This document shows, piece by piece, positions 1,412 through 60,864 of a stretch of DNA of 64,000 bases. Positions within the stretch are counted from its first letter, which is position 1. Every line of letters starts with the position of its first letter. Where the stretch lies: positions 145,285,725 through 145,349,724 of the forward strand of contig CM037588.1 of the NCBI GenBank assembly GCA_021018995.1, written 5' to 3'. The position numbers and the translations under genes are program-made. Origin of the DNA: Chloranthus sessilifolius. Taxonomy: Eukaryota > Streptophyta > Magnoliopsida > Chloranthales > Chloranthaceae. The notes beneath the pieces were generated by a model. The model made no database searches, had not been told where the DNA came from, and was given only the letters and a program-made list of their open reading frames with translations.

Positions 1412-4011
1412 TGTGACAGCCCGGATTTCGGCACCCCGAAACCCGTGCCATCAGCACGATCATCTTGACCGTGCCCCTTAACTATGCACGGAACACTGGT
1501 ATATCAAGCATAAAAAGAAGTAAGAACAACTCGCGGAATTTAAATTTAATTAGAAATACTTTTCAAAAGACAGTTCTACCCTCATGCCCCTACATGAAGG
1601 GAGAACCGATCCGAACCATCGATGATATAAATCATCACAGATGGTTCGCCCCAAAGGAATAATCCAAACTCTATACATATACATGTTTTCACAAAATAAA
1701 GGCTTGACATACCAAGCCGTACAATCTCTACTCAAAACTCCTCAAAGTAGCACAACGGAGTCCTCTAGAAGAAGTCCTCTGGAGGTGGCTCCAACTCCTC
1801 GGCCAAGAAAGTCCGATCACGGGATCGTCCCCTGAAACCTCGGCAGCTGCTACTAATGGACCTGCGACGTATAGTCTATAGGGTGAGCTACATCCTAGCC
1901 CAATAGGGAACAAACACTGCTGAACATATAAGTTATAACTCACATATATTCTATGACATACCATGCATGATGTAACTATGCAGTTGTTGATAAAACAGTT
2001 AAAAGCATTCGTTTACTGTTGATTTCTTATGTTTTCATTTACTCATGAAAAATGCTGAAAAGGCCTAAAGCAAAACTTAAACTTTCAACTAAGTAATCCC
2101 GAGCAATATAGCATCGAGCCCCGATGAGCTACCCTTCATCGTCATCTATATAGAGCGGTTTTAATGTATTCCACAGGAATACCATATAGTACCAAGCCCC
2201 TTTCCCTGGGATTGGTGGCGGGGTTTCACTTATCTCAATCAACACCCACGGGTGTGCTTACTATGTCGGATAAGCCTCCTTGACCGCCTACGGTTTCGCC
2301 AGACAGTATCGGTCACGGATATCCCGCCGTGTCGATCGTGGATATCCCGCCACGTCGGTGGGGTAACCTAAGGAACCTCAAATAACAAAATATATTTGCC
2401 TTACATATAGTTATTCACCGTGTAAGTGTGCTATCTTATATCAGTTAGGCCCTATCAAACATGATTCAATCTGTGGATACATCCCTGGGATGTATCCATT
2501 AACTTGCATCACACCTGATGCTCTTATTTCTTTACTTCTTCATCCCCTGGGGATGGCTCATTCGTTTACTCTTATGAATGTCACACACACACTTTTCACA
2601 ATTCTTTGAGCAAGAAAATAATTGAATTGTAATTTATATCACTACATACATGCTCTTGTAAAATAAAGTACATGTTCAGGGTGTTCCCTACCTCAAGTCT
2701 TTACTTGTTCAATGCATCAAGGTCCCACGTGGCTCCTTGTGCACTAGCTTACACGTACCACCTATGTTACCACATAACAGGTGAAACACATCACAAAGGA
2801 TGTAATAAAGAAGGTATAAGATGCTCCAAGAATCTTAAAGTCATACCTAAAAGCCAACAAAAATTATCCCAGTCGATTAATCCTAATCCAGAATCGAATA
2901 ATCGAACCTGGTTCGATTAATCGATTTCCAAAATCGATTAATCGAAGGTCAATATCGATTAATCGAAGTAATTTCGATTAATCGAAATTCTTCTTTTCGC
3001 AAAGTAAACTCCTTTGTTCGAGCAATGAGTTTCCGTTCGATTAATCGAATCCGATTTGATTAATCAAATTCTTCTTCCATAAAGTACACCCTCTTTGTTG
3101 AGCTTGAGTTTTCATTCGATTAATCGAATCCAGCCGATTAATCGAATTTCTTCTTTTCGCAAGGTACACCCTACTGTTAATAGCTTGAATTTCGATCCCA
3201 AATCGATTAATCGAAAACTCAAATCGATTAATCGAAATCCCATTTCGATTAGTCGATTTTCATAAATCATTTCCTCCAACCCTTGGGGTCCACCGAAGTT
3301 CGATCGATTAATCGATTCTCAAATCGATTAATCGAATCAAATTCGATTAATCGAAATCAATTCGATTAATCAAGTCGGGTCTTCGACCTTTCAACTTCTC
3401 GCCAATTTCGATTAATGACCCAATTTCGATTAATCGAAATTGTCGATTCAACTTTCATTTGTTCTTCCCAATCTTTTTCCCACACTTTTTCCTCTATTTT
3501 TCTAAGCCATTATCCTATGATCTAACCCACATTTAACCACAACTTAACCCCTATGATCTATGCATCTTATTTACAAGAATTTACCTTGGATAGATCTCAA
3601 GTTGATTTCTATCGCTAGTTGGAAGGCTAGGGTTTCTAGCTTTGGCTCTAACGGATCCCTTGCGTCGAATCCGGCCTCCTTAATGCTTGACTCTTCTTCC
3701 AAACAGTTGCAATAACTCTTCTCTCACTCCTCTCTCTTTCTCTCTCTTCTTTACTTCTTTCAACCACAAAAACATGAAAGTTAGGGTTTTCACCCTTTTT
3801 ATCTTATTTCTTTTCTCATGTGGAACACATACACACCCTCTGTATGTTACTCTACACACCCTCTATCTCTCCACTCTTCTACACTGGTTCACACATCACA
3901 TCCGCTCATCTCACTTTAAGTTCATCTTTGAACTATCTTATGGTCAAACCTAAGACCAATCGGGCACGGATCCCGAGGTCATAGTTTAACGTGATTTTTA
4001 GGGCTATTACA
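1412..4011 (-). repeat. Element B 3' LTR
   Basis: It reads TGTAATAGCCCTAAAAA... to ...GGGCTGTCACA on the - strand, with TG/CA ends, and matches 11418-14094 over its length. It contains a CT/GA-rich tract near 3720-3765 and a dense array of TCGATTAATCGA palindromes at about 2861-3455. The ORFs inside it (for example 2672-2920 and 3687-3953) recur in the other LTR but look like chance reading frames. Confidence 0.93.
2861..3455. repeat. TCGATTAATCGA palindrome array in B 3' LTR
   Basis: About twenty copies of the perfect 12-bp palindrome TCGATTAATCGA and close variants, spaced 10-60 bp apart, often extended to AATCGATTAATCGAAA. The same array is in the upper LTR (about 12864-13532) and, outside any LTR, upstream of B's ORF2 (about 5937-6400). 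Degenerate copies often differ at the CG (TTGATTAATC, GATTAATCAA). Confidence 0.9.
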
Positions 4012-4024
4012 TCCTCCCCACCTT
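4012..4024 (-). other. Element B polypurine tract
   Basis: On the - strand AAGGTGGGGAGGA directly abuts the 3' LTR (TGTAATAG...). This is the expected site of plus-strand DNA priming and it confirms the - orientation of the element. Confidence 0.85.
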
Positions 4025-4029
4025 GGGAA

Positions 4030-4045
4030 TTTTCGTCCTCGAAAA
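4030..4045 (-). other. Small stem-loop just upstream of B polypurine tract
   Basis: Six-base arms TTTTCG/CGAAAA around a four-base loop. Elements A (39371-39386) and D (50870-50885) have the same structure at the same place. It is followed by the conserved AATTCC and then the polypurine tract. Confidence 0.55.
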
Positions 4046-4309: not shown

Positions 4310-5703
4310 TCATGCGGGCCCCTCGCTAGGTCGGGTCCGGCAGGAGCCGGCTCGGTCATGTGGAAGGGTCTCTGTCACGGAGTAGATGTGGATGTGGAGG
4401 AACGCGTCTGGTGGTGGGATGGAAGATCGTCCTCTATGGAAGGCGGTGCGTCCGGCCGTCACTCTTCTTTCAGCCAACATATCCATGTAGGTGTGGGGTA
4501 GATGTGTGAAACATGAGGAAATCAATCCTCCTGTTCATCCTCTCATTATTTGCGTCCATTCTGGCGAGCACGTCCTCTATGGTAGGACCGGATGGAGTGG
4601 CGCGCCGGCGGTAGGATGAGGTGGGAGTCGCGGGCGCGGAGTGTGCAGGTGGTGTCGGCGTGGGAGGAACCTCTCCATGGATGGCTCGGTGGGTGTGCCC
4701 CACCCTCAAGTGGGTCCTGCGAGGTGGTGGGGGTGGTGGCGGTGCTACACCGGGCTTTCTTTCCGCTTTCTTCTTTGGGGAGACTTTGTGAATGTCTTCA
4801 CGCGATCGTAGCCCTCACCTCGTGAGGTGAGATAGTGTAGAGGATCGTTGAGTAGCACTCCAACATGCTTGAGATGAGCCGAGCATACGGCATCTTCCCC
4901 TTGGGCCGCATGTTGCCCTTCATCAGTTTAGTCTTGATGTACCGCATCCCCTCAAGGATGACCTTGGTAGCATCAAACCACCGGCCACAGAAGGCCGCGT
5001 AAAGTGCATGTTGCACTTTGTCGACACGCTCAGTGTCGTGGCGCATCGGGTAAAGGTTGCATTTGATTATGGAGTCGAGCATCCACATGTAGGGTGGAAG
5101 ATCAACCCTCTTGATGGAAATGCCCTTCTTGCCATTTGTCATGAGGGTCATGACTTCCTCAAATCGGGGGTCTTCCACAAAGGGTGGAAATAGGGTAGTC
5201 TCGGGGGTGAACTCGAGGTAGCACTCGAGCACCTCGTGAATGTGACGCCGAGTGATCGTGTAGAGACGACCCTCGATCTTGGTGATGATGCAGTCGTCGG
5301 TAGGGCCACTGGTTAGCCCTTGGTAGAATAATCTCACCAATCTAGGGTAGTAGGAACCCCGGATTGGTTTGAGAAGATTGCCGAGACCGGCATTGTTTAT
5401 GTAGTTTTGAGCCCATTGGGTCTCGCCCGTTGGGTCGATGGTATATTCGACCTCAAAGGTCTTGGCTGCCCACCACTCGTTTGGTTGCTCCACGTTGGTG
5501 GGTGGTGGTGGCATGGGGGTGGATTCGCGGGAAGACTCGCGCGTAGATGCGCTCGTCGAACCGGAGGTGGTCTCCGATTCCGACGGTGTCGGAGTCCTCA
5601 CCGGCGATGGGGTAGGTGGTGGTGGTGCGGCGTTCTTACGCCTAACCGGCAATTTGGAGGTTGCCTTCTTCGAAGACAAACGGGTTTTGGGCGGCATTTT
5701 CAC
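4310..5703 (-). pseudogene. Element B accessory ORF2 (sense strand, env position)
   Basis: An extra gene in the same sense as pol, between integrase and 3' LTR. A 301-codon frame is open from 5703 to 4798 (a second in-frame ATG at 5697 gives MPPKTR, matching the start in A). It then continues in shifted frames to about 4310. The N-terminus is basic and Pro/Ser/Thr-rich (about residues 1-75). It is followed by a conserved globular part with PNEWW, a YPRLVRLFYQ motif, a W-LD...LYP..H segment and MPYARLIS. Elements A and D carry homologues. The pattern resembles the 'putative plant transposon protein' domain of plant genome annotations (from memory, not searched). No catalytic motif is evident and I do not assign a function. 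It lacks the signal peptide and membrane segment expected of an Env protein. Confidence 0.75.
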
Positions 5704-5936
5704 TAAACTAGGGTTTATCTACTTCTAATGAAAGAAAAAGTTCGATTCTAGGGTTTACCGTGGTTTTCGAAGGCGAATACGGTAGATTGTGGGCGCGAAT
5801 CGGCGGAAAACCCAAACCCTAGAGCACTCGGTTGGTTGGAGAAGAAGGAGAAGATGAAACGCCCAAAAATCCCAAGCCAAATGATTTCGAATGGGAAATG
5901 AAATCCCCAAATTTATTTATATAGCCATGCTCGACA
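5704..5936 (-). promoter_or_regulatory. Candidate internal promoter and leader of B ORF2
   Basis: Reading on the - strand, TATATAAATA lies at 5914-5923, directly after the palindrome array and about 210 nt before the ORF2 ATG. A leader follows with CT-rich stretches (CTTCTCCTTCTTCTCC) and several telo-box-like CTAGGGTTT/AAACCCTAG motifs, which are common in plant 5' UTRs. This suggests ORF2 is expressed from its own promoter rather than only by read-through from the LTR. Confidence 0.6.
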
Positions 5937-6400
5937 TCGAAATTCCATTTCGATTAATCGAAATTCAAACCTGGGTTAAGCCGCGTAAAATCGATTAATC
6001 GATTTTCCAAGTCGATTAATCGAAAATAGAATTGAATTAATCGAAAATATTTCGATTAATCAAATCGTGTTTGTTTAAAAATTTAAAATGTTGAGCTCAT
6101 CGGCGTACGACGATTAATCGAAATTCATTTCGATTAATCGAAATCTCAAAATCGATTAATCGAACTTAGTTTCGATTAATCGAAATCGTGCAAAAACTTC
6201 AAAAATTTTCCAAAATTTCCTTAAGTATTCGATTAATCGAAATCCCATTTCGATTAATCGAAATTCCTTTCTATGCATTTTCTAACTCAACTTTTCATTT
6301 CCAGTCACTGGCACATGCCAGTCGACTACTCGAACAAGATCGATTAATCGAAATTCCAAATCGATTAATCGATTTGAAATTCGATTAATCGATTTTGCCC
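5937..6400. repeat. TCGATTAATCGA palindrome array upstream of B ORF2
   Basis: About 15 copies of TCGATTAATCGA or one-base variants between the end of pol and the ORF2 promoter. It is the same motif family as in B's LTRs but lies in unique internal sequence, so it is not explained by LTR duplication. Confidence 0.9.
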
Positions 6401-11417: not shown

Positions 11418-14094
11418 TGTGACAGCCCGGATTTCGGCACCCCGAAACCCGTGCCATCAGCACGATCATCTTGACCGTGCCCCTTAACTATGCACGGAAC
11501 ACTGGTATATCAAGCATAAAAAGAAGTAAGAACAACTCGCGGAATTTAAATCTAATTAGAAATACTTTTCAAAAGACAGTTCTACCCTCATGCCCCTACA
11601 TGAAGGGAGAACCGATCCGAACCATCGATGATATAAATCATCACGTATGGTTCGCCCAAAGGAATAATCCAAACTCTATACATATACATGTTTTCACAAA
11701 ATAAAGGCTTGACATACCAAGCCGTACATAATCTCTACTCAAAACTCCTCAAAGTAGCACAATGAGTCCTCTAGAAGAAGTCCTCTGGAGGTGGCTCCAA
11801 CTCCTCCAGAAAGTCCGACTCACGGGATCAGTCCCTGAAACCTCGGCTGCTACTAATGGACTGCGACGATAGTCTATAGGGTGAGCTACATCCTAGCCCA
11901 ATAGGGAACAAACACACCGAACATATAAGTTATAACTCACATATATTCTATGACATACCATGCATGATGTAACTATGCATGTTGATAAAAACAAAGCTTA
12001 AAAGCATTCGTTATCGTTGATTTCTTATGTTTTCATTTACTCATGAAAAATGCTGAAAAGGCCTAAAGCAAAACTTAAACTTTCAACTTAAGTAATCCCA
12101 GCAATATAGCATCGAGCCCCATGAGCTACCCTTCATCGTCATCTATATAGATAGCTTTAATGTATTCCCGAATACCATATAGTACCCAAGCCCCTTTCCC
12201 CGGGATTGGTGGCGGTTTCACTTATCTCAATCAACACCCACAGGGTGTGCTTACTATATGTGATAAGCCTCCGCTGCCTACGGTTTCGCCAGATATCGAT
12301 CACGGATATCCTGCCGTGTCGGGCCGTGGATATCCCGCCACGTCGGTGGGGTAACCTAAGGAACCTCAAATAACAAAAATATCGGTGCCTTACATATAGT
12401 TATTCACCGTGTAAGTGTGCTATCTTATATCAGTTAGGCCCTATCAAACATGATTCAATCTGTGGATACATCCCTGGGATGTATCCATTAACTTGCATCA
12501 CACCTGATGCTCTTATCTCTTTACTTCTTCATCCCCTGGGGATGGCTCATTCGTTTACTCTTATGAATGTCACACACACACACTTTTCACAATTCTTTGA
12601 GCAGTAAAAATAATTGAATTGTAATTTATATCACTACATACATGCTCTTGTAAAATAAAGTACATGTTCAGGGTGTTCCCTACCTCAAGTCTTTACTTGT
12701 TCAATGCATCAAGGTCCCACGTGGCTCCTTGTGCACTAGCTTACACGTACCACCTATGTTACCACATAACAGGTGAAACACATCACAAAGGATGTAATAA
12801 AGGAGGTATAAGATCCTCCAAGAATCTTAAAGTCAAACCTAAAAGTCAACAAAATTTATCCCAGTCGATTAATCGAAATCCAGAATCGATTAATCGAACC
12901 TGGTTCGATTAATCGATTTCCAAAATCGATTAATCGAAGGTCAATATCGATTAATCGAAGTAATTTCGATTAATCGAAATTCTCCTTTTCGCAAAGTCCA
13001 TTCTCAGTTCGAACAGTCGAATTGTCATTCGATTAATCGAATCACTTTGATTAATCGAAATTCTTCTTTTCAGAAGTAAACTCACCGCTTGACGATTGAG
13101 TTTCCGTTCGATTAATCGAATCCAGTTTCGATTAATCGAAATTCTTCTTTCCGCAAAGTACACCTACTGTTCGAACAGTTGAGTTTTCATTCGATTAATC
13201 GAATCCAGTTTCGATTAATCGAATTTCTTCTTTTCGCAAGGTACACCTCTTGTTGAGCGATTAATTTCACGATCCCAAATCGACATCGAAAACTCAAATC
13301 GATTAATCGAAATCCCATTTCGATTAGTCGATTTTCCTAAATCATTTCCTCCAACCCTTGGGGTCCACGAGGTTCCCGATGATTAATCGATTCTCAAATC
13401 GATTAATCGAAATCAAATTCGATTAATCGAAATCCAATTCGATTAATCAAGTCGTGGTCTTCGACCTTTCAACTTCACAGCCAATTTCGATTAATGAAAC
13501 CCAATTCGATTAATCGAATTGTCGATTCAACCTTCATTTTATTCTTCCCAATCTTTTTCCCACACTTTTTCCTCTATTTCTCTAAGCCATTATCCTATGA
13601 TCTAACCACATTTAACCACAACTTAACCCCTATGATCTATGCATCTTATTTACAAAAATTTACCTTGGATAGATCTCAAGTTGATTTCTATCGATAGTTG
13701 GAAGGCTAGGGTTTCTAGCTTTGGCTCTAACGGATCCCTTGCGTCGAATCCGGCCTCCTTAATGCTTGACTCTTCTTCCAAACAGTTGCAATAACTCTTC
13801 TCTCACTCCTCTCTCTTTCTCTCTCTTCTTTACTTCTTTCAACCACAAAAACATGAAAGTTAGGGTTTTCACCCTTTTTATCTTATTTCTTTTCTCGGTG
13901 TGGAACACATACACACCCCTCGGTGTATGTTACTCTACACACCCTCTATCTCTCCACTCTTCTACACTGGTTCACACATCACATCCGCTCATCTCACTTT
14001 AAGTTCATCTTTGAACTATCTTATGGTCAAACCTAAGACCAATCGGGCACGGATCCCGAGGTCATAGTTTAACGTGATTTTTAGGGCTATTACA
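11418..14094 (-). repeat. Element B 5' LTR
   Basis: Partner of 1412-4011, with the same TG/CA ends and the same palindrome array (about 12864-13532). It should contain the element promoter. A purine-rich GAGAGAAAGAGAGAGG stretch (reverse strand near 13800-13830) resembles the region that follows the TATA box in the D/E LTRs, but I cannot place a clear TATA box here. Confidence 0.93.
12864..13532. repeat. TCGATTAATCGA palindrome array in B 5' LTR
   Basis: Over twenty copies of TCGATTAATCGA and variants. Most are shared in position with the 3' LTR array, and a few differ by small indels. Confidence 0.9.
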
Positions 14095-14099: not shown

Positions 14100-15058
14100 G
14101 AAGAATATGTGTAAACCAAACTCAGTTGTATTGAAATTCTGTGTTGAGCTCTAAAAATTTGAATATGGTGTGTAAAATTAAATGGAGCAATATAGAGGTC
14201 TAAATGAAAGATTGATGCGTAATTGGTAGGTCGATGAGCTAATACCTAAATGGATTGGCAAATGAGGATGATCTAAGAATAACATGATCAATCACGCTAT
14301 GAAGGATTACCTTTTTAGTGTGAATAGGAACTAGTTCATTAAGGGATTTCAAGGACATGTAAAAGCGACCTCAGCTCCATTTTTGGGAATTCGTTTGATC
14401 GAAATTGAAGTCGTTCGATTGAATTTCTATAGGTTAAGGCCTAAAGTGTTTCCAGGAAATTGTTCGATCGATTTTAAAATCATTCAAACAAAATATTATG
14501 GCCAGTGGGAGTCCAAGCTATTGCCAGGAAGTCGTTTGATCGATTTTCAAATCATTCAAACGAAATGGATGGACCAGTAGAGTGAAAAATAGCCTAGAAG
14601 TGAGGTTCAACAAATTGTTTGATCGAAATTAGAAATCGATCGAACGAAATGTTAAGGACTACTTTAATTAATGAAATTCGTTCGATCAGAATTAGTATCT
14701 GATCGAACAAAATTTGGGGATTTCATTTAATGTGTAAAAATCGATCGAACGAATTTAAAATCGTTCGATCGATTTTGGAAACTATATATTGGCATGAGAT
14801 TTTTTTTTTTTGTCATTCATTCCACAACCAAGTTCTTTTTGTTTTATTTCCTCTTGGAGAAGTCTAGGGCTTGCAAGGGTCATCGGCTTTAGCAAATTCC
14901 GGCCATCTCCAAGCTCGGATTAGCACGTGAACAACTCCTCATAACGCGAAGAGGTAACCACTAACCTCTCTTAGGTCATTGGAATTTCAAATTTTGATTC
15001 ATACCCTAGTGTTAGAGAAATTTGGGCAAAACCCTTGCCCAAAATCCTTTGTAACCGT
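14100..15058 (+). promoter_or_regulatory. Element A pol-ORF2 spacer with motif array and TATA box
   Basis: Continuation of element A after the B insertion. From about 14385 to 14776 it contains about ten CGTTCGATCGATTTT-like motifs (variants CGTTTGATCGAAATT, ATCGATCGAACGAA), in both orientations. The same motif family fills part of A's own LTR (40063-40322). TATATATT (14783-14790) follows the last copy immediately, about 270 nt before the ORF2 start. A possible 5' splice site (GAAGAG/GTAACC, near 14951) lies in the leader. No ORF of note is present. Confidence 0.65.
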
Positions 15059-15621
15059 ATGAAAATTACAATGCCACCTAAAACTCGCCAAGCCACCGCA
15101 AGTGCTGCACCAAAGAAACCCACTACAGGTTCCTCTTCACAACCACCATCGAAGAAACCACCGACGGGTTCTTCGTCTGCACCACCTACACAGTCACCGC
15201 CCCCATCACCTCCACATGAATGACCCAACGAATGGTGGGCTGATAAGGACTTTGAGCCTGAATGGATCATAGATCCTAAAATTTTCGCCAAGCGAGACGA
15301 AACACATTGGGCGTTCAACTATATTTCCACGGCAGGTTTGACCGGGATACTCCGCCCGTGTAAGGATAGTTTTTACCCCCGAATAGTGAGACTATTCTAT
15401 CAGAACATGGAATTGGTCACAGACCTGACCATCCTGAGAACCAAAATAGAAATTGAACCTATGTGAAGTTGATTAAGAAGCCACCAGTCAAAGACCCACC
15501 ACAGCCGAAACCACAAACTCAAGACCAGCCACCACCTGATGCTCCTATCCCTGATGAGCCAACTGCTACCTTTCCACTTCAGCAGTGTGCCAGGCACCGT
15601 CTACAGACGCAAGCACCACCC
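15059..15621 (+). pseudogene. Element A accessory ORF2, 5' part (split by element C)
   Basis: Homologue of the ORF2 genes of B and D. It starts at ATG 15059 (an in-frame ATG at 15071 gives MPPKTR as in B), with a Pro/Ser/Thr-rich N-terminus. A TGA at about 15221 comes just before the conserved PNEWW block, followed by FYPRIVRLFYQNM at about 15375-15410. Relative to B and D the middle of the domain is missing: the frame jumps from TKIE to a Pro/Gln-rich segment near 15463. The gene is then cut by the LTR of element C at 15622 and resumes at 38525. Confidence 0.75.
15617..15621. repeat. Target-site duplication of element C (left copy)
   Basis: CACCC before TGTAGACACCC; repeated at 38520-38524 after the 3' LTR. 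Confidence 0.8.
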
Positions 15622-16005
15622 TGTAGACACCCAAATTTGGCCCAAGGCCCGATCGAAACACCTTTTGAGAGAGGTGCAATTCTAAGCTTTTGATGGCATA
15701 TATGGAACCCTTAGGAATCACCCCAGACCCTTAGAAATCACCTTAGATCCCTTAGGAACCTACCTCGAACCTTTAGAACCCATTCCGAACCCTAAACCTA
15801 ACCTTCCCAGGCAATGGATGAAGAATGGTGCACCAGGACTGGCTGAGGTCTTATACTAATATCAAATCATATACCACCAGAGAGAGGGCTTCTCCAGCTT
15901 TCCAATGAGCTAAGAATCACCCCAATCAGAGGTGTACATCGAAAGATATGGCAATCCGAATCCCAGGGGCATAACTATAAATTCACTTAGGCCCCCCTAG
16001 GGATT

Positions 16006-16209
16006 TGGCGCAACTAATAGTTGCGCCAGGCATAATTTTGCCTAGCACAACTATTAGTTACGCCATGCCAATTTCCCAGGATTTTAGCCTGGCACAACTA
16101 ATAGTTATGCCAGGTTTAACAGTGGGCCCCACCATCGTGAGCTCATTTCCAGGCACGGCTCTTCACTGTTTTACTGTACATTTGCCTGGCGCAACTATTA
16201 GTTGCGCCA
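16006..16209. repeat. 11-bp-arm inverted repeats in C 5' LTR
   Basis: Four copies of a 23-bp site: arm TGGCGCAACTA, one central A or T, and the exact complementary arm TAGTTGCGCCA. Copies at 16006-16028 and 16187-16209 are perfect. Copies near 16042 and 16091 carry G-to-A or C-to-T changes at the CG. They lie about 290-495 bp upstream of the LTR TATA box. Confidence 0.92.
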
Positions 16210-16500
16210 GGCATATGAACAGTAACCGTTGGGTTTTGCCTCGAAGTTCGAGATTTGGGTTTGACTTGTTGACCATCTTAATCTTTGGGGTGTGTTTTGA
16301 TAGTTCTGTTGCACCCTCCGCACCCATTCCTTACCTATTTACAACCCTCCAAGTGGCTTAAAGCCTCACCCCATCATCCACCATTAGAACCACCTTCACA
16401 CGTTTCCAAGCTCTCAAAATCTTAGGAAACCTTAGCTTTGAGATTACCTAATTGCTAACCCCAATTAGCATTTAAGTAGCCTCCTAATCCACCCTTTTCC

Positions 16501-16508
16501 TATAAATA
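16501..16508 (+). promoter_or_regulatory. TATA box of element C LTR promoter
   Basis: TATAAATA after a pyrimidine-rich stretch (CCACCCTTTTCC) and before GAGCCCCCC. It is conserved at 37787-37794 in the 3' LTR. Transcription would start about 30 bp downstream. Confidence 0.7.
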
Positions 16509-17292
16509 GAGCCCCCCTCCCCTTGGTTTAAGGGTTGAGAATTTTACTTAAGAGAGATAAAGCTCTAAGTGAGAAGTTCTTCCTCCCTTTGGTGCACTAT
16601 TTTCCCTCAAAATTCTAGAATTCCAAAACCTCTTCCAAGCTTGTTCTTACTTCAAAAACACATAGCCTAGGTGTGTGTGATCCCCTAGCCTCCCTTCCGC
16701 CTCCTGTAGCTAGTAAGCCTTAGTAGTTAGAACTCGTTTTTCTACCATCCAAGCCTTCAAAAGCTCCTCTAAGCAAGCCACGCAAGGCTCTCCTACTGTG
16801 CTACAAGGGCCCGAGGGCTCCGGCTCTCTCCTTTCCTCTCCTATCACTTTTTGGCATTCCTCTACCCTCTCATTTGGGCCATTACACCGTCGAATTTTAG
16901 GTAGGAACGGAGGGACACAAATAGCATTGGAGGCCCATTTGGGCAAGAGGGAACCATTTCCTTTTCTCTTAATCTATTTTATTTTTAGCTATTAGTAGAG
17001 ACCGCGGTAAGCGGGTTGATCGTGTGCCTAACACCTTCCCGATCGATAACCGATGCCCCTACCCAAGAGCCTTTGAACACCGAAAGCTCCGGGTGGCAAC
17101 TCTATTTTTTTCGTTAGGGAGCGCATTGTCGCGACGGGATCATCAAAAATCCCACGGTTGCACAGATGTAGAGCTTCCCCTTGAACTTGGCCTTATTTTT
17201 TTATATTTTTACTAACATGTTATTGCTGTTTTTTTAGTGTATTTTTGCTTTTTTACTCACCCCACCGATTAAGTCGTTTTACTTACCCCTAC

Positions 17293-17480: not shown

Positions 17481-17984
17481 CATAATCCACCAGTGGACGC
17501 CGGCCCGTAGTGGCGGCACGGAATAATCACCCTCGGTCTTTGAACTAAAGAAAACTTCCAAAAAAAAGAAAAGCTTTGAAAAAAATTAAAATTGAACCAA
17601 GTTAGGGAGCTTAATTAATTTATTTTACGGGATAGATTTTAAAAGGGGTTGGATTAGGCAAACATATAAACACCCGAGTCTTAGTATGGCGGCAGCCCCT
17701 AGTGGTGATGATCCAGAAAAGTCCTAGCCTACCTAGTATTTGAGAAGGCGCTTGCGCCGGAGGTATATCGGGTGGGTTCCCATTTCGAAGCTTAAAACCC
17801 TTGGGGAGTGCGCTAGTGAGTTATACCAGACTCAAGCCAGTTAGGTGCGATAAGGAGCGGATCGAACACTAAAAAATAGCTCAGTTCCCGGAAGCCTAGC
17901 TTCCACAAAAACCAAAAAAAGAGACTCATTTCGGGTGTTGGTGGCTGCTGTCAAACAATCTGAAAGCTCTATTTTTGGCTGGTG

Positions 17985-18150
17985 CATGTATTAGTTGCGC
18001 CAGCACAAAAAGCTGGCATTTATAATTGGCGCAACTAATAGTTGCGCCAGCTTTAAACTCTAGACTTTTACCTTGGCGCAATTAATAGTTGCGCTAGTGT
18101 AAAAAGGGTCCCCTGCAACCTGGGCGCATGTATTAGTTGTGCCAGGTCTG
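17985..18150. repeat. Inverted-repeat motif group upstream of C gag
   Basis: Four copies of the TGGCGCAACTA/TAGTTGCGCCA site. The copy at 18027-18049 is perfect; those near 17985, 18074 and 18123 are degenerate. It lies about 0.5 kb before gag and outside the LTR. Confidence 0.88.
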
Positions 18151-22875: not shown

Positions 22876-22878
22876 GTC

Positions 22879-36892: not shown

Positions 36893-36896
36893 CATC

Positions 36897-39576: not shown

Positions 39577-39578
<2 letters not shown>

Positions 39579-39630
<52 letters not shown>
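39579..39630. repeat. (TA)n microsatellite
   Basis: About 26 TA units in the element A LTR, at the place where a TATA box would be expected. Confidence 0.95.
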
Positions 39631-39634
<4 letters not shown>

Positions 39635-40062: not shown

Positions 40063-40322
40063 ATGGAACGAAATTAGTACTCGTTCAATCGATTTTGACC
40101 AATGAAGAAAGAAGAGAAATAAGGAACCTGAAGAAATCGATCAAACGATTTCAAAATCGTTCGATCGATTTGTGAACCTGTGTGAATGAAATAAAAATTG
40201 TTCGATTGGTTTGCTAGGGACAAGAATTAGGTGTAATGGATTTCTAAGGAAATCGATTGAACGAAATAAAATAGTTCAATCGATTTTTCAAATTGTTCGA
40301 TTGATTTAAAATCGTTCGATCG
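40063..40322. repeat. CGTTCGATCGATTTT-like motif array in A LTR
   Basis: About ten copies of (A)TCGTTCGATCGATTTT and variants, in both orientations. The same family lies in the spacer upstream of A's ORF2 (14385-14776). Confidence 0.85.
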
Positions 40323-41840: not shown

Positions 41841-42070
41841 ATAGACCGTCATTTGTTTCATCAAAATAACGACTGTCTTCGACTATTGACCCCAAACAAC
41901 AGTTTTGAGCTATTATTTTTTGTCATTTAAAAAAAAAAAAACACTCACCCCATTTTTTTTACGACTCATTATGACTGTCATTTTTCTCTCATAAAATGGT
42001 GGTCATAGATGGGAAGAAGAACGACGATTTTCGATCGTCATTTATATATATATATATATATAATACATTA
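41841..42070 (+). mobile_element. CACTA-like subterminal region, cut by element A
   Basis: Right flank of element A. Repeated short motifs (ACCGTCATTT, AACGACTGTC, ACGACTGTCATTTT, GACGATTTTCGATCGTCATTT) resemble the subterminal repeats of plant CACTA transposons. The terminal CACTA itself would lie left of element A, outside the window, so the assignment rests on motif style. It ends in a short (TA)n. Confidence 0.4.
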
Positions 42071-43357: not shown

Positions 43358-43654
43358 CTAGCACAAGGAAGAAACAATCATTACCTAGCTCCAAGTAAAG
43401 TGGTTGCACCAGTAACTCAAATAATGACAAAAAAAAATATCATTTAAGTTTATTCCCCAATGAAGTTTAAAAAGAATAACTATTGCAAAAGATTGTTAAT
43501 TTTCAAGGCGAAGAGTAGAGTTCATCAGACTGTATTTTGTTGCTTCCACCTCAAAACTCTTAAAAATTAAACATGACTATAGCCAGAACAAGAGTATAAG
43601 AAAATCAAATAAAGATTCAAGAAGGTGCCAAAATAAACTATGAAATGATTTCTT

Positions 43655-44370
43655 TAGGTCTTTCTGTAGGTCGTGCCTGGGTTCACGTGTGCAAGGGTTG
43701 GGCTCCTCCCAAACTGTCCTTTTTTGGTTGGAGCCTAACTTGGGGGAATATTCTTAGTATGTATAAGTTTATTAGAAAATGGAAAAGAATGAGATATAGG
43801 TGTATCATGTGTCTCCAAGAGGAGGGGACAGCTAACCATCTTTTCATTCACTGCTGCATTACGAAGGATATTTGGAACTTGGTCCTTAACACATTCAATG
43901 CCATTTGGGTTTTCCATTATTCTTGTGGGGACCTGATGGTGACATGGGACCGCGGTGGTTTTGTTGGGCTTAAAAATGCTTTTTGGAAAAATACTTTATG
44001 GGCTCTCATTTGGGCTTTGTGGTTCGAAAGGAATGATAGAATCTTCCATAAAATGAGGAGGCCCACGGCGATGATCATGAATGTCAAGGATTGGACTCTT
44101 AATGGGTTGTCCTGAATAGGGATGAGATTCATGATAATAGTGGGGAGCTTATCAAGGGGTGGGAGGATCTGCCATGAGTCTGCGACATGCCTGATCTGGG
44201 TGGGGTACCCTAGTCTGCCTCTCTTGCCTAGCTACTCCTTGCTTTTTCCTAGGTCTTTTGGTTTTTCCTTTTGGGTTGAGCATGTTGTGCTCTCTCATGA
44301 TTTGGGATCTTGTTGCGGTAAAGTTATGTACTCTTCTCTCTTTTAATATAATATTGCTTAAAAAAATAAA
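43655..44370 (+). mobile_element. L1-type LINE 3' end with RT zinc-binding domain
   Basis: The open frame to 44115 encodes the zf-RVT region found at the C-terminus of plant L1 polyproteins: APPKLSFFGWSLTWGNIL, then C-x2-C (RCIMCLQEEGTANHLFIHCC), then WALIWALWFERNDRIF. It is followed by about 230 bp of 3' UTR and an A-rich tail (TTAAAAAAATAAAA at about 44357-44370). The RT and endonuclease parts are absent, so it is 5'-truncated, the usual fate of LINE insertions. Confidence 0.8.
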
Positions 44371-48328: not shown

Positions 48329-48391
<63 letters not shown>

Positions 48392-48584: not shown

Positions 48585-50851
48585 CGTGACGACCCGACTT
48601 TTCCAATCCCTAAGGTATAGGAAAGGCCGGTTCATCAACTTATTGATTTCTCAATAAGCCGTAACAAACAGAAGCCGGCAACATAAACAAAGGTCTAAAG
48701 ACAGAGGCAACATTGTTAATCCAAAAACAAAAGCTTCATATAATAAAATTAGATATATCACTGTGAGGAACCAAAAAGAACCACCGGTGATGGCCAATCC
48801 GATCACCTAAAATAGAGGTTCACAATAATGGTTCCTCGAGTGATATCTAAAGATAAAAAAATAATAGCCTAAGGCTCAACAATCCAAAAATAATATCCAG
48901 ACAAAATACCAAAAATATACAGAATCTAAGATCACGGGAAAAACTCCTCAGCTGGTATGTCCAAATCCTCCTCGGGAATATAATCGGAGTCCTCCGGATC
49001 CTCTGACCCAAGGTCAGTCTCAGCACCTGTGACGTATAGTCGAGGGTGAGCTAACAGCCAAGCTCAATAGAGGAAGACAGATCTATTTGCATTTCTTTAT
49101 AAGTAAAGGTTTTCAAAAGATGGAATCGGATCAAATATGGTTTTTCAATGATGCTTTTCAAATTAAATCTCCAGTTCTAATCCTGAGTCAAAACTGATAA
49201 TAAAATCTAAAGTGTTCAAAATGTTCTGATTTAGCATGCTTCTTGTCTTAAATTTATAACTTAATTTTATCTCCCAAATTTCCTATAGCATGAGAGCAGA
49301 CTACGTGACCGATGGGAAGACCCTACTGACCATTGTCGTTCATGAACTCATTTCGAAAATGCAACAAGCCCCTACGCTATGAGGGAAACTTGCGCCAAAG
49401 TTTTACCGTCAACACAGTTGGTAGAATCTAGGGCATCGTACTTATGAACCCAAAATCAAATGCAAATGCTAACACATATCCAAGCTTATTATTCATATCA
49501 TATACTGATTTTTCAAAGTTCTGATTCGAAGTTCTGATTCAAAATTTAACTGAGGTTCTGATTCAAAATTTAACTGAGGTTCTGATTCAAATTTAGCTGA
49601 GGTTCTGATTTCCAATGATTCTTATTTATGACAGGGTTTACAAATTTTTCGGATTGTATCATATGTTCAAAGTTTTAATTACACTGTGTGCAACGAAATT
49701 TCCATATTTTATGCTTCTAAAATAAAATGATTTATAACAGTTTATGCTTATAAATTCATGCAAATAAAAACTAGGATTCCCCTACCTTATCCAAGAAAAT
49801 TCAAAAGCATGAACAAGCAGTCCTCTCTAAGGACTCCCAATTGTCAAAACCTACATATATTAACACCCTCAGTATTAATATAGAACCCAAAAATCAACCC
49901 AAAAGCTCACAAAATAAAAATCCAATCAAATATTTAAAAGCCAAAAGCTGGACAGAATTTGACCATCGATTTCAAATTCGATGGTCGAATTCGAAATTCG
50001 ATGGTCGATTTTAAATTCGACCATCGAATTTCAGAACTCTGTTTAAAGCTTAAAATCTTATTTTCGACAGTCGATTTCCAATTTCGACAGTCGATTTTGA
50101 AATCGACGATTAATTTCCTTCGTGGTATTAATTTCAACATGCGGATTCTTTTCATCATTTTCTACACAGCCATTCAATCCTTTCTATTGAATCCAAATCT
50201 TAATTTCTTAACAAAACCCAATAAATTTACATAAGGAGGTTTCAAGGCATACCTCTTGTAGCTTAATCTGTTGATCCCCTTATACCGATTCACGCACCGG
50301 AACAAGCTTCTATGATTGAAGGTTTAAAAGTTTCAAGTCAGCCCATTATAACCCTTCTTCCATTGCACAGATCCTAACAACACAGTGATATCCTCTCCTC
50401 TAACCTTCTCTTCCAATATCTCAAACTGATCCAATTTCAAATACCAAATAAACCAATGGTTGAGATGGGAAGAGGAGCTCTCACTATCTTAAGATCTAAA
50501 GATCAAAAGCAGCCCAATTAGTTTGCAATTGACTTTCAACCGAAAGAGAGAAGTGTAAATTCTCTCAAATCTCTCTCTCTTTATAATATAAAACAAAACC
50601 TACTAAAAATCTAGATATTTATAATTACTACTTATCTACTTAAGTTTAAACATTATCCGGTGTTACACACAAACACCAATGCTATTGTGTGAGTCATAGA
50701 TTACATGACTTGCACACTTCTTAAAACGAAATCCTTATACCAAAAGTCTTATCATAGACTTAGATTACCAAAAATAAAAAATAGTCCACTATTTTTCGGA
50801 CACGCTTATCGAGGTAAACGAAAATAGGTCAAAAATATCAGGGATATTACA
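48585..50851 (-). repeat. Element D 3' LTR
   Basis: Reads TGTAATATCCCTGATATTTTT... on the - strand. A TATA-like TATATTATAAAGAGAGAG lies near 50571-50590. The motif array TCGATGGTCGA/TCGACAGTCGA is at 49960-50110, in the presumed transcribed leader. Confidence 0.92.
49960..50110. repeat. TCGATGGTCGA/TCGACAGTCGA motif array in D 3' LTR
   Basis: At least seven short inverted-repeat motifs: ATTCGATGGTCGAATT and its complement form GACCATCGA, then TTCGACAGTCGATTT. The same two submotifs, in the same order, lie upstream of ORF2 at 53026-53172 and in the 5' LTR at 59980-60115. Confidence 0.9.
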
Positions 50852-51471: not shown

Positions 51472-52734
51472 TCACCGTATCCTCCACAGCGCAGAAGGCA
51501 TGCTAGTACCAGCGCCCGATGTCGAAGGACGATATACTGAAGCACGGATATCGGCCATATACGTCGTGTAATCCTCTGGAAATGCGTGCTGCATCAAATA
51601 AGAGAGGGCGCCGCCATGGACATCCAACTCTTGACGCATAGAGCTGGTGTGGTGGGTGAGCTCTTGAATTTGATGGCTCATGGCGGTCATCTGTCGGGTG
51701 AACTCGGAGAGTGTAAGGACGTCACTCTGTGGGGGCTGAGGAGGTGCAGCGGTAGTAGTGTTAGGGATAGAATGAGTGGGGTCATCATCATCCTCACTAG
51801 CAGTATCAGGTGCCTCTGCATCCTTTGGAGTCTTTACCAACCTACTGTAGGTTTGACCCCAATTGACCAAGTTATAAATTTTTCGACCCGCTGTGGATTT
51901 GGGTTCAGTAGGAGGGATATCATAAGCAGGGCCCGCTCGGTAGTTCTCAATCATCACTGAAATTAAGCGAGCATAGGGCATAGTCTTCAATGGTTTCTTC
52001 ACATGTTTACCCATTTTCTCTCGGGCTTTAATAATCCCTTTGAAAAGGACGTCAGGAGCACTAAACCATCGCTCCTTATAGGCCGCAAAAAGAATTTGTT
52101 GGAGGGGACCGGTGCGCTCAGATTGATGACCAAAAGGGTAAAGGGTGGTCTTTAAAATTTTATCCAAGATCCACATGGTCTCCGGCATATGGACCGTGAC
52201 GATGGATTTACCGGACCCATGATAGCCTTGCGTCATTTGTGTAATTACATCCTCGAAACGAACCGGTTTGGGGAAGGGAGGACCTAGACCCATGGTTTGT
52301 GAGTGATTTAAAGGGCATCGCAATGCCACAGCCATGTCCTCTAGATCAAAAGTATAATCGCGGTCATCAATCTCCGTATAGATTCTTTTCCCGTCTTCGC
52401 GGCTCATGTGCTGATAAAATAGGGGCACGAGTCGGGGATAGAAATGGTCGCTAAAGGATGTGCACAGGGAGGTCAATTTGGCCTTTTCAAGGTATTCACC
52501 CGCCCATTGTGTGGTTGTTTGTTGATCAAACAACTCCGGGTGAAACAAATATTCCGTAGTGAAGCCTTTAATGCTCCAAAATTCGTTGGGTTGCTCAGGC
52601 AAGGGAGAGACAGTGGGTGGTGGAACCGATTGTGGTGGTTCTGTGGGCTGTTTTGTGCGGCTTGTAGACGCAGCTTTAGAAGCTAGTCTTTTTGAGGTGG
52701 GATTCCTAATGGGGGTTTGCTTCTTAGGGCCCAT
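51472..52734 (-). CDS. Element D accessory ORF2 (intact, 420 codons)
   Basis: A fully open gene in the env position, sense to pol. The start MGPKKQTPIRNP matches the basic MPPKTR-type starts of A and B. Domains: a basic, Ser/Pro/Thr-rich N-terminus (1-45); a conserved globular part (about 46-290) with PNEFW, FYPRLVPLFYQHM, METMW-like PETMWILDKIL, LYPFGHQSER, RWFSAPDVLFKG and MPYARLISVMIENY; an acidic linker (about 310-330, ASEDDDDPTH); a probable helix/coiled coil (about 345-385, TRQMTAMSHQIQELTHH); and an end with STSGAG. No signal peptide, membrane segment, zinc finger or catalytic triad is seen. It resembles plant 'putative transposon protein' domains. The function is unknown; a nucleic-acid-binding or regulatory role is an inference. 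Confidence 0.85.
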   Translation of the reverse strand: MGPKKQTPIRNPTSKRLASKAASTSRTKQPTEPPQSVPPPTVSPLPEQPNEFWSIKGFTTEYLFHPELFDQQTTTQWAGEYLEKAKLTSLCTSFSDHFYPRLVPLFYQHMSREDGKRIYTEIDDRDYTFDLEDMAVALRCPLNHSQTMGLGPPFPKPVRFEDVITQMTQGYHGSGKSIVTVHMPETMWILDKILKTTLYPFGHQSERTGPLQQILFAAYKERWFSAPDVLFKGIIKAREKMGKHVKKPLKTMPYARLISVMIENYRAGPAYDIPPTEPKSTAGRKIYNLVNWGQTYSRLVKTPKDAEAPDTASEDDDDPTHSIPNTTTAAPPQPPQSDVLTLSEFTRQMTAMSHQIQELTHHTSSMRQELDVHGGALSYLMQHAFPEDYTTYMADIRASVYRPSTSGAGTSMPSALWRIR

Positions 52735-53725
52735 TCAAACAAAATTTAAAAGAAAAACCCACAAAATGCAAGAAAACAGGGATGTACAGAGAATATAGCA
52801 AGGGTTACCTTGTAAAAAAGTCCCCAAATCGGTTTTGCAAGGATTGAAATATGCTCCCCTTGTGAAATGTAGTGAAATCCCCTTTGGAATGCGGCCAAAA
52901 ATTGAAGAGGAAGCTCTAAAATCCCCAAATCGCCCGAAACCCCTCAAAACCCTAAGCTCAAAACCCCTAAAACTGGAACCCGAAATGCCAAATAGTTTTA
53001 AACCCCCAAACTTAAATCGAGAAAATCGATGGTCGATTTCAAAATCGATGGTCGAATTCGAAATTCGATGGTCGATTTTCTCAGAACTTCTCAGGTTCTG
53101 TTTTTGGCCGAAAACTGGCTTGAAAACTCATAGAAATTCGATGGTCGATTTGGCATTTCGACAGTCGAATTGTTTTATACTGTTTTCTTTAAAAAATTTC
53201 AAAATTTTTGGAATTCCAAACATGCCCTTGGGTCTAAATGTACCTTCTTTGATCCCATTTTATTCCCATTACCTTATCGAACCTGGACCGTATTATCACA
53301 GCCGGAATTGGCATAGACAATTTAAGAATAGGCCAAGAAATCTTTTGACCAATTTATTTCACATCACCATTCGGAAAATAATAAGACCGGGTTTGGACGG
53401 GCTCGTAAAAGTTTTAGGATTTCTACAACATAACGCAATTAAAAGCTATAAATATGGACAAAATAATAGGTATATATATAGGGCCATGACATCAGTATCA
53501 AGGCCAAATTTACTTGGTAAAAATAAAGAAGTAGCTAACTATAGGCCAATTTTATGTCACATGGCGAGTGTAAGATACCAAGTGTAGGCCCAATAGTATT
53601 GAATTTTCCATAATGAAGTAATGCACATATATTGGACCGACAAAATTTTCTCGCCAAATCATCTGTATAAAATCAGTAATTACATAAAAATTCAAGAAAT
53701 CATACATTCAACACATAATGTCTCA
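52735..53725 (-). promoter_or_regulatory. Element D pol-ORF2 spacer: motif array, leader, TATA-like box
   Basis: On the - strand: a TATA-like TATATATATA at 53472-53481, the motif array at 53026-53172, then a leader with CTTAGGGTTTTGAG and GGGTTTCGGG, a possible donor (TACAAG/GTAACC near 52811), and the ORF2 ATG at 52734. Unlike in A and B, the clearest TATA box lies upstream of the array. The 250-codon + strand ORF (52835-53587) overlaps this region. It has no recognisable domain and I treat it as a chance frame. Confidence 0.55.
53026..53172. repeat. TCGATGGTCGA/TCGACAGTCGA motif array upstream of D ORF2
   Basis: Five copies of TCGATGGTCGA followed by one TTCGACAGTCGAATT. It is the same composition and order as the LTR array, in non-LTR sequence. 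Confidence 0.9.
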
Positions 53726-58528: not shown

Positions 58529-58622
58529 CTGATCATCATTGTTAAACAAACAATAACAATTAGATCGAATTAATTGTTAGAAAAATCTAACCCCTAGTCC
58601 AAGACTCAAACCTAGAGCCATG

Positions 58623-58634
58623 CTCGATACCAAC
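58623..58634 (-). other. Element D primer-binding site (degenerate initiator Met type)
   Basis: On the - strand GTTGGTATCGAGCA follows the 5' LTR. It matches TGGTATCAGAGC with small differences. Confidence 0.65.
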
Positions 58635-60864
58635 TGATTTAATTCGACTTTTCCAATCCCTAAGGTATAGGAAAGGCCGGTTCATCAACTTTTTGATATC
58701 TCAATAAGCCGTAAATGTAATTTAAGAACATAAACAAAGGTCTAAAGACAGAGGCAACATTGTTAATCCAAAAACAAAAGCTTCATATAATAAAATTAGA
58801 TATATCACTGTGAGGAACCAAAAGGAACCACCGGTGATGGCCAATCCGATCACCTAAAATAGAGGTTCACAATAATGGTTCCTCGAGTGATATCTAAAGA
58901 TCAAAAAATAATAGCCTAAGGCTCAACAATCCAAAAATAATATCCAGACAAAATACCAAAAATATACAGAATCTAAGATCACGGGAAAAACTCCTCAGCT
59001 GGTATGTCCATATCCTCCTCGGGAATATAATCGGAGTCCTCCGGATCCTCTGACCCAAGGTCAGTCTCAGCACCTGTGACATATAGTCGAGGGTGAGCTA
59101 ACAGCCAAGCTCAATAGAGGAAGACAGATCTATTTGCATTTCTTTATAAGTAAAGGTTTTCAAAAGACGGAATCGGATCAAATATGGTTTTTCAATGATG
59201 CTTTTCAAATTAAATCTCCAGTTCTAATCCTGAGTCAAAACTGATAATAAAATCTAAAGTGTTCAAAATGTTCTGATTTAGCATGCTTCTTGTCTTAAAT
59301 TTATAACTTCATTTTATCTCCCAAATTTCCTATAGCATGAGAGCAGACTACGTGACCGATAGGAAGACCCTACTGACCATCGTGGTTCATGAACCCATTT
59401 CGAAAATGCAACAAGCCCCTACGCTATGAGGGAAACTTGCGCCAAAGTTTTACCGTCAACACAGTTGGTAGAATCTAGGGCATCGTACTTATGAACCCAA
59501 AATCAAATGCAAATGCTAACACATATCCAAGCTTATTATTCATATCATATACTGATTTTTCAAAGTTCTGATTCGAAGTTTTGATTCAAAATTTAACTGA
59601 GGTTCTGATTCAAATTTAGCTGAGGTTCTGATTTCCAATGATTCTTATTTATGACAGGGTTTACAAATTTTTCGGATTGTATCATATGTTCAAAGTTTTA
59701 ATTACACTGTGTGCAACGAAATTTCCATATTTTATGCTTCTAAAATAAAATGATTTATAACAGTTTATGCTTATAAATTCATGCAAATAAAAACTAGGAT
59801 TCCCCTACCTTATCCAAGAAAATTCAAAAGCATGAACAAGCAGTCCTCTCTAAGGACTCCCAATTGTCAAAACCTACATATATTAACACCCTCAGTGTTA
59901 ATATAGAACCCAAAAATCAACCCAAAAGCTCACAAAATAAAAATCCAATCAAATATTTAAAAGCCAAAAGCTGGACAGAATTCGACCATCGATTTCAAAT
60001 TCGATGGTCGAATTCGAAATTCGATGGTCGATTTTAAATTCGACCATCGAATTTCAGAACTCTGTTTAAAGCTTAAAATCTTATTTTCGACAGTCGATTT
60101 TGAAATCGACAGTCGAATTTCCCAGGCTCTGTGGCTGTTAATTTCAACATGCCCGGATTCTTTTTCATCATTTTCTACACAGCCATTCAATCCTTTCTAT
60201 TGAATCCAAATCTTAATTTCTTAACAAAACCCAATAAATTTACATAAGGAGGTTTCAAGGCATACCTCTTGTAGCTTAATCTGTTGATCCCCTTGTACCG
60301 ATTCACGCACCGGAACAAGCTTCTATGATTGAAGGTTTAAAAGTTTCAAGTCAGCCCATTATAACCCTTCTTCCATTGCACAGATCCTAACAACACAGTG
60401 ATATCCTCTCCTCTAACCTTCTCTTCCAATATCTCAAACTGATCCAATTTCAAATACCAAATAAACCAATGGTTGAGATGGGAAGAGGAGCTCTCACTAT
60501 CTTAAGATCTAAAGATCAAAAGCAGCCCAATTAGTTTGCAATTGACTTTCAACCGAAAGAGAGAAGTGTAAATTCTCTCAAATCTCTCTCTTTATAATAT
60601 AAAACAAAACCTACTAAAAATCTAAATATTTATAATTACTACTTATCTACTTAAGTTTAAACATTATCCGGTGTTAAACACAAACACCAATGCTATTGTG
60701 TGAGTCATAGATTACATGACTTGCACACCTCTTAAAACGAAATCCTTATACCAAAAGTCTTATCATAGACTTAGATTACCAAAAATCTAAAATAGTCCAC
60801 AATATTTTTCGGACATGCTTATCGAGGTAAACGAAAATAGGTCAAAAATATCAGGGATATTACA
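58635..60864 (-). repeat. Element D 5' LTR
   Basis: Partner of 48585-50851. The outer 12 bases at the internal edge are altered (TGATTTAATTCGAC where TGTGACGACCCGAC is expected). It contains the motif array at 59980-60115. Confidence 0.92.

Follow-up and report, generated by a model that had tools for sequence, protein, structure and literature searches.

Family-private site arrays in the long terminal repeats and accessory-gene spacers of nested plant Ty3/Gypsy retrotransposons, and a putative self-activation circuit

Among the described systems, the closest to the one treated here is that of the VANC proteins of VANDAL transposons, which, according to the available text, bind family-specific arrays of non-coding motifs and cause methylation loss (PMC5735166, PMC10398659), and for which unpublished VANC-DNA structures have been mentioned (PMC12859917). 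Among long terminal repeat (LTR) retrotransposons, the accessible portions of the literature describe Grande gene23, an antisense accessory gene that is transcribed from its own promoter and encodes a nuclear protein (PMC7264820, PMC11963269), and a 3' sense additional open reading frame (aORF) of sunflower Athila elements, which partially matches Transposase_32 and includes a nuclear localisation signal (PMC11728184). Whether such additional ORFs of LTR retrotransposons modulate the epigenetic landscape has been asked beside VANC, and the VANC analogy for LTR elements is thus not new, having already been printed as a question (PMC12844716). In the open-access literature, preprints excluded and as far as its accessible text goes, we found no report of sites shared by the LTR and the accessory promoter of plant LTR retrotransposons. 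Here we analyse a stretch of 64,000 nucleotides of the Chloranthus sessilifolius genome (contig CM037588.1, positions 145,285,725 to 145,349,724; hereafter the window), a nest of plant Ty3/Gypsy elements, five of which, A, B, C, D and F, are involved. Four of them, A to D, carry arrays of a short family-specific site both in the LTR and in front of one or more accessory genes, and we consider it probable, judging from sequence, that these palindrome-like sites are bound by a protein encoded by the same family, which would provide private activation or anti-silencing.

Site arrays and their family specificity

The arrays had been pointed out for elements A to D in an earlier note on this DNA, and they were recovered in all four. 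In element B (minus strand), the site TCGATTAATCGA occurs 12 times exactly and 16 times at up to one mismatch at 2873-3437 in the 3' LTR (1412-4011), 15 and 18 times at 12865-13517 in the 5' LTR (11418-14094), and 11 and 13 times at 5950-6392, between pol and the accessory gene ORF2. In element A (plus strand), TCGTTCGATCGA is found once exactly and five times at up to one mismatch in the 3' LTR (39405-41841, array 40081-40323), and three and seven times in the internal array (14391-14772). Element D (minus strand) combines TCGATGGTCGA and TCGACAGTCGA, with 3+2 and 4+2 exact sites in its two LTRs (3', 48585-50851, array 49959-50094; 5', 58645-60864, array 59982-60116) and 4+1 in the internal array (53026-53168). 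In element C (plus strand), the palindrome GGCGCAACTAWTAGTTGCGCC is present in the 5' LTR (15622-17164, array 16007-16208) and the 3' LTR (36896-38519, array 37302-37503), with 2 and 0 exact copies in the two LTRs and 2 and 3 at up to two mismatches. It recurs in three internal arrays, before gag (the leader array, 17981-18143), before antisense gene 2 (30575-30770, minus strand, also present in two other C copies) and before antisense gene 1 (34915-35028, minus strand), each with one exact site and two at up to two mismatches. A fifth element, F, beyond the four named previously, has its own site, TCGAGGGTCGA, at the corresponding place (61720-61777) of its 5' LTR (60973-63096, plus strand), exactly at 61767 and with one mismatch at 61720.

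The sites of A, B, D and F all have the form TCG-N5/6-CGA with differing centres, and the C palindrome is unrelated to them. Their earlier designation as inverted repeats is exact for B and C; it does not hold for A, whose site is a near-palindrome (10 of 12 positions symmetric), nor for D and F, whose sites have only the TCG/CGA half-sites in common. Mean site identity between LTR and internal arrays is 0.93 in B, 0.83 in D, 0.82 in A and 0.78-0.87 in C (the last across all pairs among four C arrays), and the 10 bp on either side of the sites are just 0.35-0.49 identical; since the sites were picked by similarity, the low identity of the flanks alone is the informative value.

The arrays have a marked pitch. 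Of the spacings up to 60 bp in D, 80 of 93 are 19-20 bp, and 62 of 90 spacings in B and 83 of 146 in A, counted up to 70 bp, are 19-22 bp; C spacings are mostly 47-48 bp (47, 47 and 48 bp in the leader, and likewise in the antisense arrays, the LTRs and two other copies), with others of 37-38, 88 and 97 bp. A 20.5-bp pitch gives the highest resultant lengths, 0.81 in LTR and 0.74 in internal arrays. Helical phasing at 10.5 bp was rejected, its resultants being 0.63 (LTR) and 0.58 (internal) with nearby periods as good. The non-palindromic cores of D and A are present in both orientations, which fits duplex DNA as what is read.

The arrays of A, B and D are also rich in CpG (observed/expected 2.0-3.2 versus about 0.65-0.75 nearby), in the stretches 2861-3455 and 5937-6400, 40063-40322 and 14385-14776, and 49960-50110 and 53026-53172. 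As a general feature of the arrays CpG enrichment was discarded, the C arrays reaching just 0.53-0.82. CpG transitions account for 19 of the 25 site mismatches in A, 9 of 21 in B and 12 of 32 in C; together with the CpG-rich arrays, this suggests that the sites were methylated after insertion, which would be compatible with a contest against silencing without proving it.

That the motif differs between elements and agrees within one, as the earlier note had claimed, is borne out by a near-diagonal count matrix and by a 10-mer test. With no mismatch allowed, each motif is confined to its own element in the window. At one mismatch the strays are an F motif in the A LTR, another in the B ORF2 segment, and cross-matches between D and F, whose motifs are one base apart; at two mismatches strays are scattered and include gag-pol. 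Dinucleotide shuffles (300 for each of ten regions, with a 15-base core used for C) contained at most one exact site. In a motif-free test, the 10-mers shared between LTR and internal segments number 59 in A, 153 in B and 63 in D (maxima of 200 shuffles, 20, 21 and 21), and 35, 70 and 55 for the C LTR against its three internal segments (16, 20 and 24). For off-diagonal cells, and for the gag-pol segments of B, C and D used as controls, the counts stayed within the shuffles, except for the A spacer against the B LTR, at 27 (24).

The same specificity is seen across the host genome (2.17 Gb searched, in 32 contigs), where TCGATTAATCGATT occurs 145,626 times versus 17 for the reversed control, and the perfect C palindrome 9,336 times versus 0. 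Two B-type sites lie 5-35 bp apart at 131,158 places, which gives the scale in this genome (the B-B pair is palindromic, and either strand yields the same count of places); the corresponding pairs number 737+780 = 1,517 for D and 524+509 = 1,033 for A, counted in the same orientation only. Mixed pairs, counted in one of the two relative orientations, number 0 for B-D and 23 for A-B, same-family pairs thus being far commoner. The 23 A-B places, some of them overlapping, have the two sites within 35 bp, lie on C2-C4, C6-C10 and C14, and possibly represent transitional or recombinant arrays.

Such exclusiveness bears on the idea that the readers are transcription factors or insulator proteins of the host, each family having drifted to the use of a different one. 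Plant LTRs commonly contain host factor sites, which speaks for this idea. A single host factor would be expected to impose a single core, however, and families sharing one nucleus keep near-exclusive cores together with the same TCG/CGA half-sites and a pitch of about 20 bp, with mixed pairs at 0 and 23 genome-wide in the orientation tested; we regard reading by host factors as unlikely.

Promoter context and conservation among genomic copies

In the A and B families, the internal array stands close to a TATA box. Among 15 spacer pieces with sites, nine have a TATAWA word 9-11 bp past the end of the last site, against a background of 0.63% of positions, the copies being related rather than 15 independent trials. 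In window A, the TATA box (14783-14788, plus strand) lies 10 bp past the last internal site; in window B, TATATAAATA (5914-5923, minus strand) stands between the internal array and ORF2, at a TATA distance of 26 bp (offset 26-28 past the last site). Further downstream, TAGGGTTT-like leader words were seen in B, D and the diverged B-type copy L059, not in A, and donor-like AGGTAA leader words in A, D and L059, with similar words in the leader of C antisense gene 1. In D and F, TATAAAG lies about 260 bp into the LTR, upstream of the array. From the TATA spacing in A and B, the internal array is probably a proximal element of a putative promoter belonging to ORF2 itself.

Copies elsewhere in the genome keep the sites. 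For D, 100 ORF2 matches were scored among 49,986 candidates and 20 were hand-picked to span identity; we further took 10 A copies of 150, 3 B copies of 131 scored matches (the window's own among them) and 2 C copies of 150. At least two exact family-core sites are present in 18 of the 20 D spacers, at least two sites in the LTR downstream in 15, and sites in both places in 13; L048 and L049 have no LTR at the expected place, and L054 only the first 710 bp of one. A further set of D loci (L010-L038), six of which are also among the 20, gave at least two spacer sites in 27 of 27, after exclusion of two of the 29 that failed a start-codon check. In the three B copies (92-98% identity), exact sites number 14-15 per spacer and 11-14 per LTR piece, and in L059 (68% identity in ORF2, 66-74% in the LTR) the spacer keeps 10 of them and the LTR 6. 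L059 and L060 were drawn from motif clusters, so that the motifs they contain are not independent evidence; the total of four B copies includes L059, and L060, with two LTRs and no ORF2 match, was left out.

Two or more A-type sites, counted at one mismatch, are found in 9 of 10 A spacers and in all 10 LTR-side pieces, and none of these 20 A-family pieces has a B- or D-type site at one mismatch. The limits of the pieces were set by their distance from the ORF2 match, and the identity of L077 and L085 (no blast match to the A spacer) and of L078 (none to the A LTR) rests on position. The two C copies (91% and 79%) have 3-4 sites per place, mostly 47-48 bp apart, and a perfect palindrome begins 18-154 bp upstream of the match in each of the four antisense gene 2 copies on C1 that fall within the range of the palindrome matches listed. 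The earlier note had asked whether other copies lack the spacer motif: sites in both places are present in 13 of 20 D, 4 of 4 B, 9 of 10 A and 2 of 2 C copies, and this retention in diverged copies, with the rarity of mixed pairs, upholds the view of the sites as family-private cis-elements.

Site coordinates alone give a similar picture for D. The 100 listed pairs, all on C1, merge to 86 arrays, whose 39 successive distances of up to 15 kb fall at 2.9-3.2 kb (16), 6.7-7.2 kb (14), 9.96-10.02 kb (2) or elsewhere (7), against a mean of 0.03 for the first two classes when arrays are placed at random; the window distances are 3,067 and 6,956 bp, and 13 LTR-spacer-LTR triples are found among the listed pairs.

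Two changes of core are the only candidates for a joint shift that we saw. The D-like copies L055 and L056 have AGGGT, the F core, in spacer and LTR alongside other D cores, and A-family L085/L086 has TTCGAA nine times in the spacer and twice in the LTR, yielding the perfect palindrome TCGTTCGAACGA. A-family L073/L074, where the LTR has five copies of TTCGAA and the spacer no exact one, is the opposite of a joint shift.

The agreement between LTR and spacer could reflect common descent or maintenance. The claim that duplication cannot explain it stands only in part: in D, the two array blocks may descend from one ancestral block of long ago, and the sites outlast the linkers, so that it is maintenance rather than recent copying that needs explaining. 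Likewise, a check for long LTR-spacer homology with the sites masked gave nothing beyond shuffles for the window arrays of A, B, D, the C leader and C antisense gene 1, and a partial positive elsewhere: weak similarity of the segment upstream of C antisense gene 2 to the LTR (reached by 9 of 200 shuffles), faint similarity in all five other D copies tested (1-2 of 200) and weak similarity in L059 (5 of 200). These values come from the shuffle-based linker comparison, a better test than masked blast, which has little power with short linkers. A duplicated block is accordingly not supported as the explanation in the window, the weak C similarity apart, and may play some part in D and L059.

In all eight D copies with ORF2 dS (synonymous divergence) of at least 0.5, the motif columns of the spacer are 0.80-0.90 identical to the window and the array linkers 0.61-0.83, the smallest gaps being those of L053 (0.82 versus 0.76) and L057 (0.90 versus 0.83); L056, which has stops and lies outside the set used for selection analysis, has 0.76 versus 0.67. 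In close D copies, motif and linker are equally conserved (0.84 versus 0.85 in L040, 0.95 and 0.95 in L041, 0.90 versus 0.91 in L045). D sites recur at about -299, -318, -338, -357, -430 and -450 from the ATG, with switches of orientation and core type.

These comparisons weigh on the proposal that the arrays are neutral tandem repeats without function, of which a block was once duplicated between LTR and spacer and has since been homogenised through recombination or template switching. It draws support from the faint linker similarity in the five D copies and L059, from a 47-bp stretch of D that, unmasked, is 98% identical between spacer and LTR, and from a two-site unit of B with the same 9-bp linker in both places. 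The shuffle-level linkers of the window, the outlasting of linkers by sites in the eight diverged D copies, the preservation of the pitch despite differing linkers and the TATA position in 9 of 15 spacers all argue against it, and we hold neutral repeats to be very unlikely.

Accessory proteins as candidate readers

The ORF2 products of A, B and D are homologous, with about 40% identity. ORF2 of D (51472-52734, minus strand) is open and encodes 420 amino acids, with a basic stretch at about 231-251 and coiled-coil-like heptads at 344-371 (7 of 8 a/d positions hydrophobic). That of B (4798-5697, minus strand) is shorter than the open frames of its relatives and matches PF20167, Transposase_32 (E 2.3e-9), at 37.8 bits, D reaching 20.5 bits, versus a curated cut-off of 45. 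The A copy, broken by a stop (15221-15223) and by element C, was located by tblastn with the B and D proteins; its first part (15071-15621, plus strand) ends where C is inserted, and its end gives a weak match at 38588-38746 (E 0.16 only). In C, a piece of antisense gene 1 (32561-33055, minus strand) resembles the PMD domain (PF10536, E 2.1e-5, sub-cut-off) and gives a non-significant match to DUF1985 (PF09331, E 0.3); antisense gene 2 (29421-30599, minus strand) is split by an in-frame stop, its second piece matching PF10536 (E 1.5e-4), again below the cut-off. No ORF2 similarity was detected in the C antisense pieces.

The ratio of nonsynonymous to synonymous divergence (dN/dS) of D ORF2 has a median of 0.10 (0.04-0.27; 102 pairs with dS above 0.15; dS versus the window up to 1.2). 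The set comprises 16 open ORF2s, the window's and 15 of the 20 copies (five with stops were dropped), and dN is biased downward by the choice of copies from the 100 best protein matches. Judged from these ratios, D ORF2 is under strong purifying selection. It had no match among 5.8 billion proteins or in viral contigs, collections that we suspect to be plant-poor.

We propose that the reader is the accessory protein, namely ORF2 in A, B, D and presumably F; in C it would be one of the PMD-like antisense products or both of them. This protein, probably as a dimer, would bind the site arrays of the LTR and of the internal promoter of its own gene, and binding would keep both open or active, by transcriptional activation or by removal of silencing marks, so that each family would help itself alone. 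The identity of the reader, its binding as a dimer and the activating or anti-silencing outcome are all three inferred; the first is proposed because related ORF2s pair with related half-sites in A, B and D, because C proteins without detectable ORF2 similarity pair with an unrelated site, and because the array adjoins the probable accessory promoter. The purifying selection on D ORF2 and its heptad and basic stretches also favour this reading. More tentatively, and with somewhat less than even confidence, we suggest that each of two Ty3/Gypsy lineages, which differ in their accessory proteins, evolved a private and mutually exclusive silencing-lifting circuit in which site and protein co-diverge between families of one genome.

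Several observations, besides the shared D and B stretches and the close D copies mentioned above, weigh against a private circuit run by the accessory protein. No recognised DNA-binding domain was found, the PF20167 and PMD matches being sub-cut-off, and sequence matches in the Protein Data Bank (PDB) are at chance level, with no convincing solved relative. TATAWA is missing at 9-11 bp in 6 of the 15 A/B spacers (in window B the distance is 26 bp, a near-TATA word stands at the place in L069, L073 and L075, and no TATA word in L077 and L085; L081, having no site, is not among the 15), and no clear TATA was seen past the internal array of D. The LTR arrays begin about 390-760 bp into the LTR, and inspection by eye revealed no TATA box at a constant distance downstream of them, so that a single promoter geometry does not fit both places. 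Among the copies, the D spacers of L044 and L051 have zero exact family-core sites, the full LTR of L042 has zero sites and that of L057 one, and one of the 10 A spacers is without sites.

Another element-encoded protein, Gag or integrase, might read the sites instead of the accessory protein: the same elements encode gag and pol, and these proteins could track the family motif. The internal arrays, however, precede accessory genes (and gag as well in C). The site of C, whose accessory proteins are different, is unrelated to the others, a point that does not decide since C gag-pol differs too; overall, we give reading by Gag or integrase little credence. The least probable alternative, to which we attach hardly any weight, is that the palindromes act in the transcript as RNA hairpins (in packaging, splicing or small RNA), for although B and C sites could form stem-loops and the LTR and leader arrays are probably transcribed, non-palindromic cores are found in D and A in both orientations and many A/B internal arrays lie just upstream of a TATA box, probably outside the ORF2 transcript.

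If a private circuit run by the accessory protein exists, it would give a function to the extra ORFs of plant LTR retrotransposons, a puzzle of long standing, would extend sequence-private self-activation beyond VANDAL transposons to LTR retrotransposons, and would be a source of orthogonal DNA-binding modules. Elements A, B, D, F and C form a natural specificity panel, and their arrays are a directly testable target for the accessory proteins.

Element layout and relation to known systems

LTR pairs were obtained by blastn, and the ends and target site duplications (TSDs) of A, B, C and D were judged by eye. Element A is one element, interrupted by insertion of B (TSD TTTTT) and of C (TSD CACCC), the latter within ORF2: its pol end lies at 1-1336 (plus strand), with PF24626 (SH3_Tf2-1) at 749-1204 and an open frame at 1208-1336, its spacer and ORF2 resume from 14095, and its 3' LTR was delimited by a polypurine tract-TG start and a GGGCTGTCACA end. 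The two LTRs of D are 96% identical (TSD ATGGC), and F continues beyond the window, where its pol and ORF2 lie. A chromodomain (PF00385, E 3e-6, above cut-off) follows the integrase of D, which makes D a chromovirus; none was seen in the scanned A and B pieces, which end before its expected place. A and B resemble D at the DNA level in pol, and F in LTR-gag, and by this similarity all three are likely to be of chromovirus type; the narrower lineage may be Tekay, judging by pol sequence and LTR size. Element C has reverse transcriptase (RT), RNase H and integrase, and its antisense genes with sub-threshold PMD matches suggest a place on the Tat/Retand side.

Element C gag-pol also contains a G-patch domain between gag and RT (22876-23826; PF01585, E 3.7e-6, above cut-off) and, at 19426-19931, tandem repeats whose units measure about 24 and 39 bp. 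In the gap between A and D, an open frame at 43600-44112 with a zf-RVT domain (PF13966) is probably the remnant of a non-LTR element, and TA microsatellites of 28-30 units are present at 39579-39634, within the A LTR, and at 48330-48389.

As far as the accessible descriptions go, foamy virus Tas is a transactivator acting on LTR and internal promoter, the two places where sites are found here; it belongs to an animal retrovirus, and the activation suggested here comes from sequence. Like Grande gene23 and Retand, element C has an antisense accessory gene after pol (PMC7264820, PMC11963269); in contrast, we found no LTR-accessory-promoter shared site described for them in the text available, and TRP28 (PF04195) was absent from the three C antisense-region pieces scanned, two of which show sub-threshold PMD. 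The sunflower Tekay aORF differs in being 5' and matching no known domain, and no cis-site is described for it in the portion of that work consulted (PMC11728184).

The VANC system remains the nearest parallel. In the parts of the VANC papers at hand, a transposable element accessory protein is likewise paired with short motifs that are specific to the family and densely arrayed at several non-coding places of the element, and related families differ in motif, with rapid turnover by repeat formation (PMC5735166, PMC10398659). The VANC protein, however, is described with DUF1985 and DUF287, its motifs are described as arrayed in one orientation, and no word beginning with "palindrom" occurs in the main texts, whereas palindromes are found here (PMC5735166, PMC10398659). 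In the B and D ORF2 proteins, neither domain was listed at E up to 10, in a search whose filters drop most matches above 0.1, and the sites lie in the LTR and the putative internal promoter. VANDAL is a Mutator-like DNA transposon; the elements of the window have LTR pairs, RT, RNase H and integrase. The logic of the proposed circuit would thus be the same as that of VANC, in a different class of element and, as far as tested, with a different family of protein.

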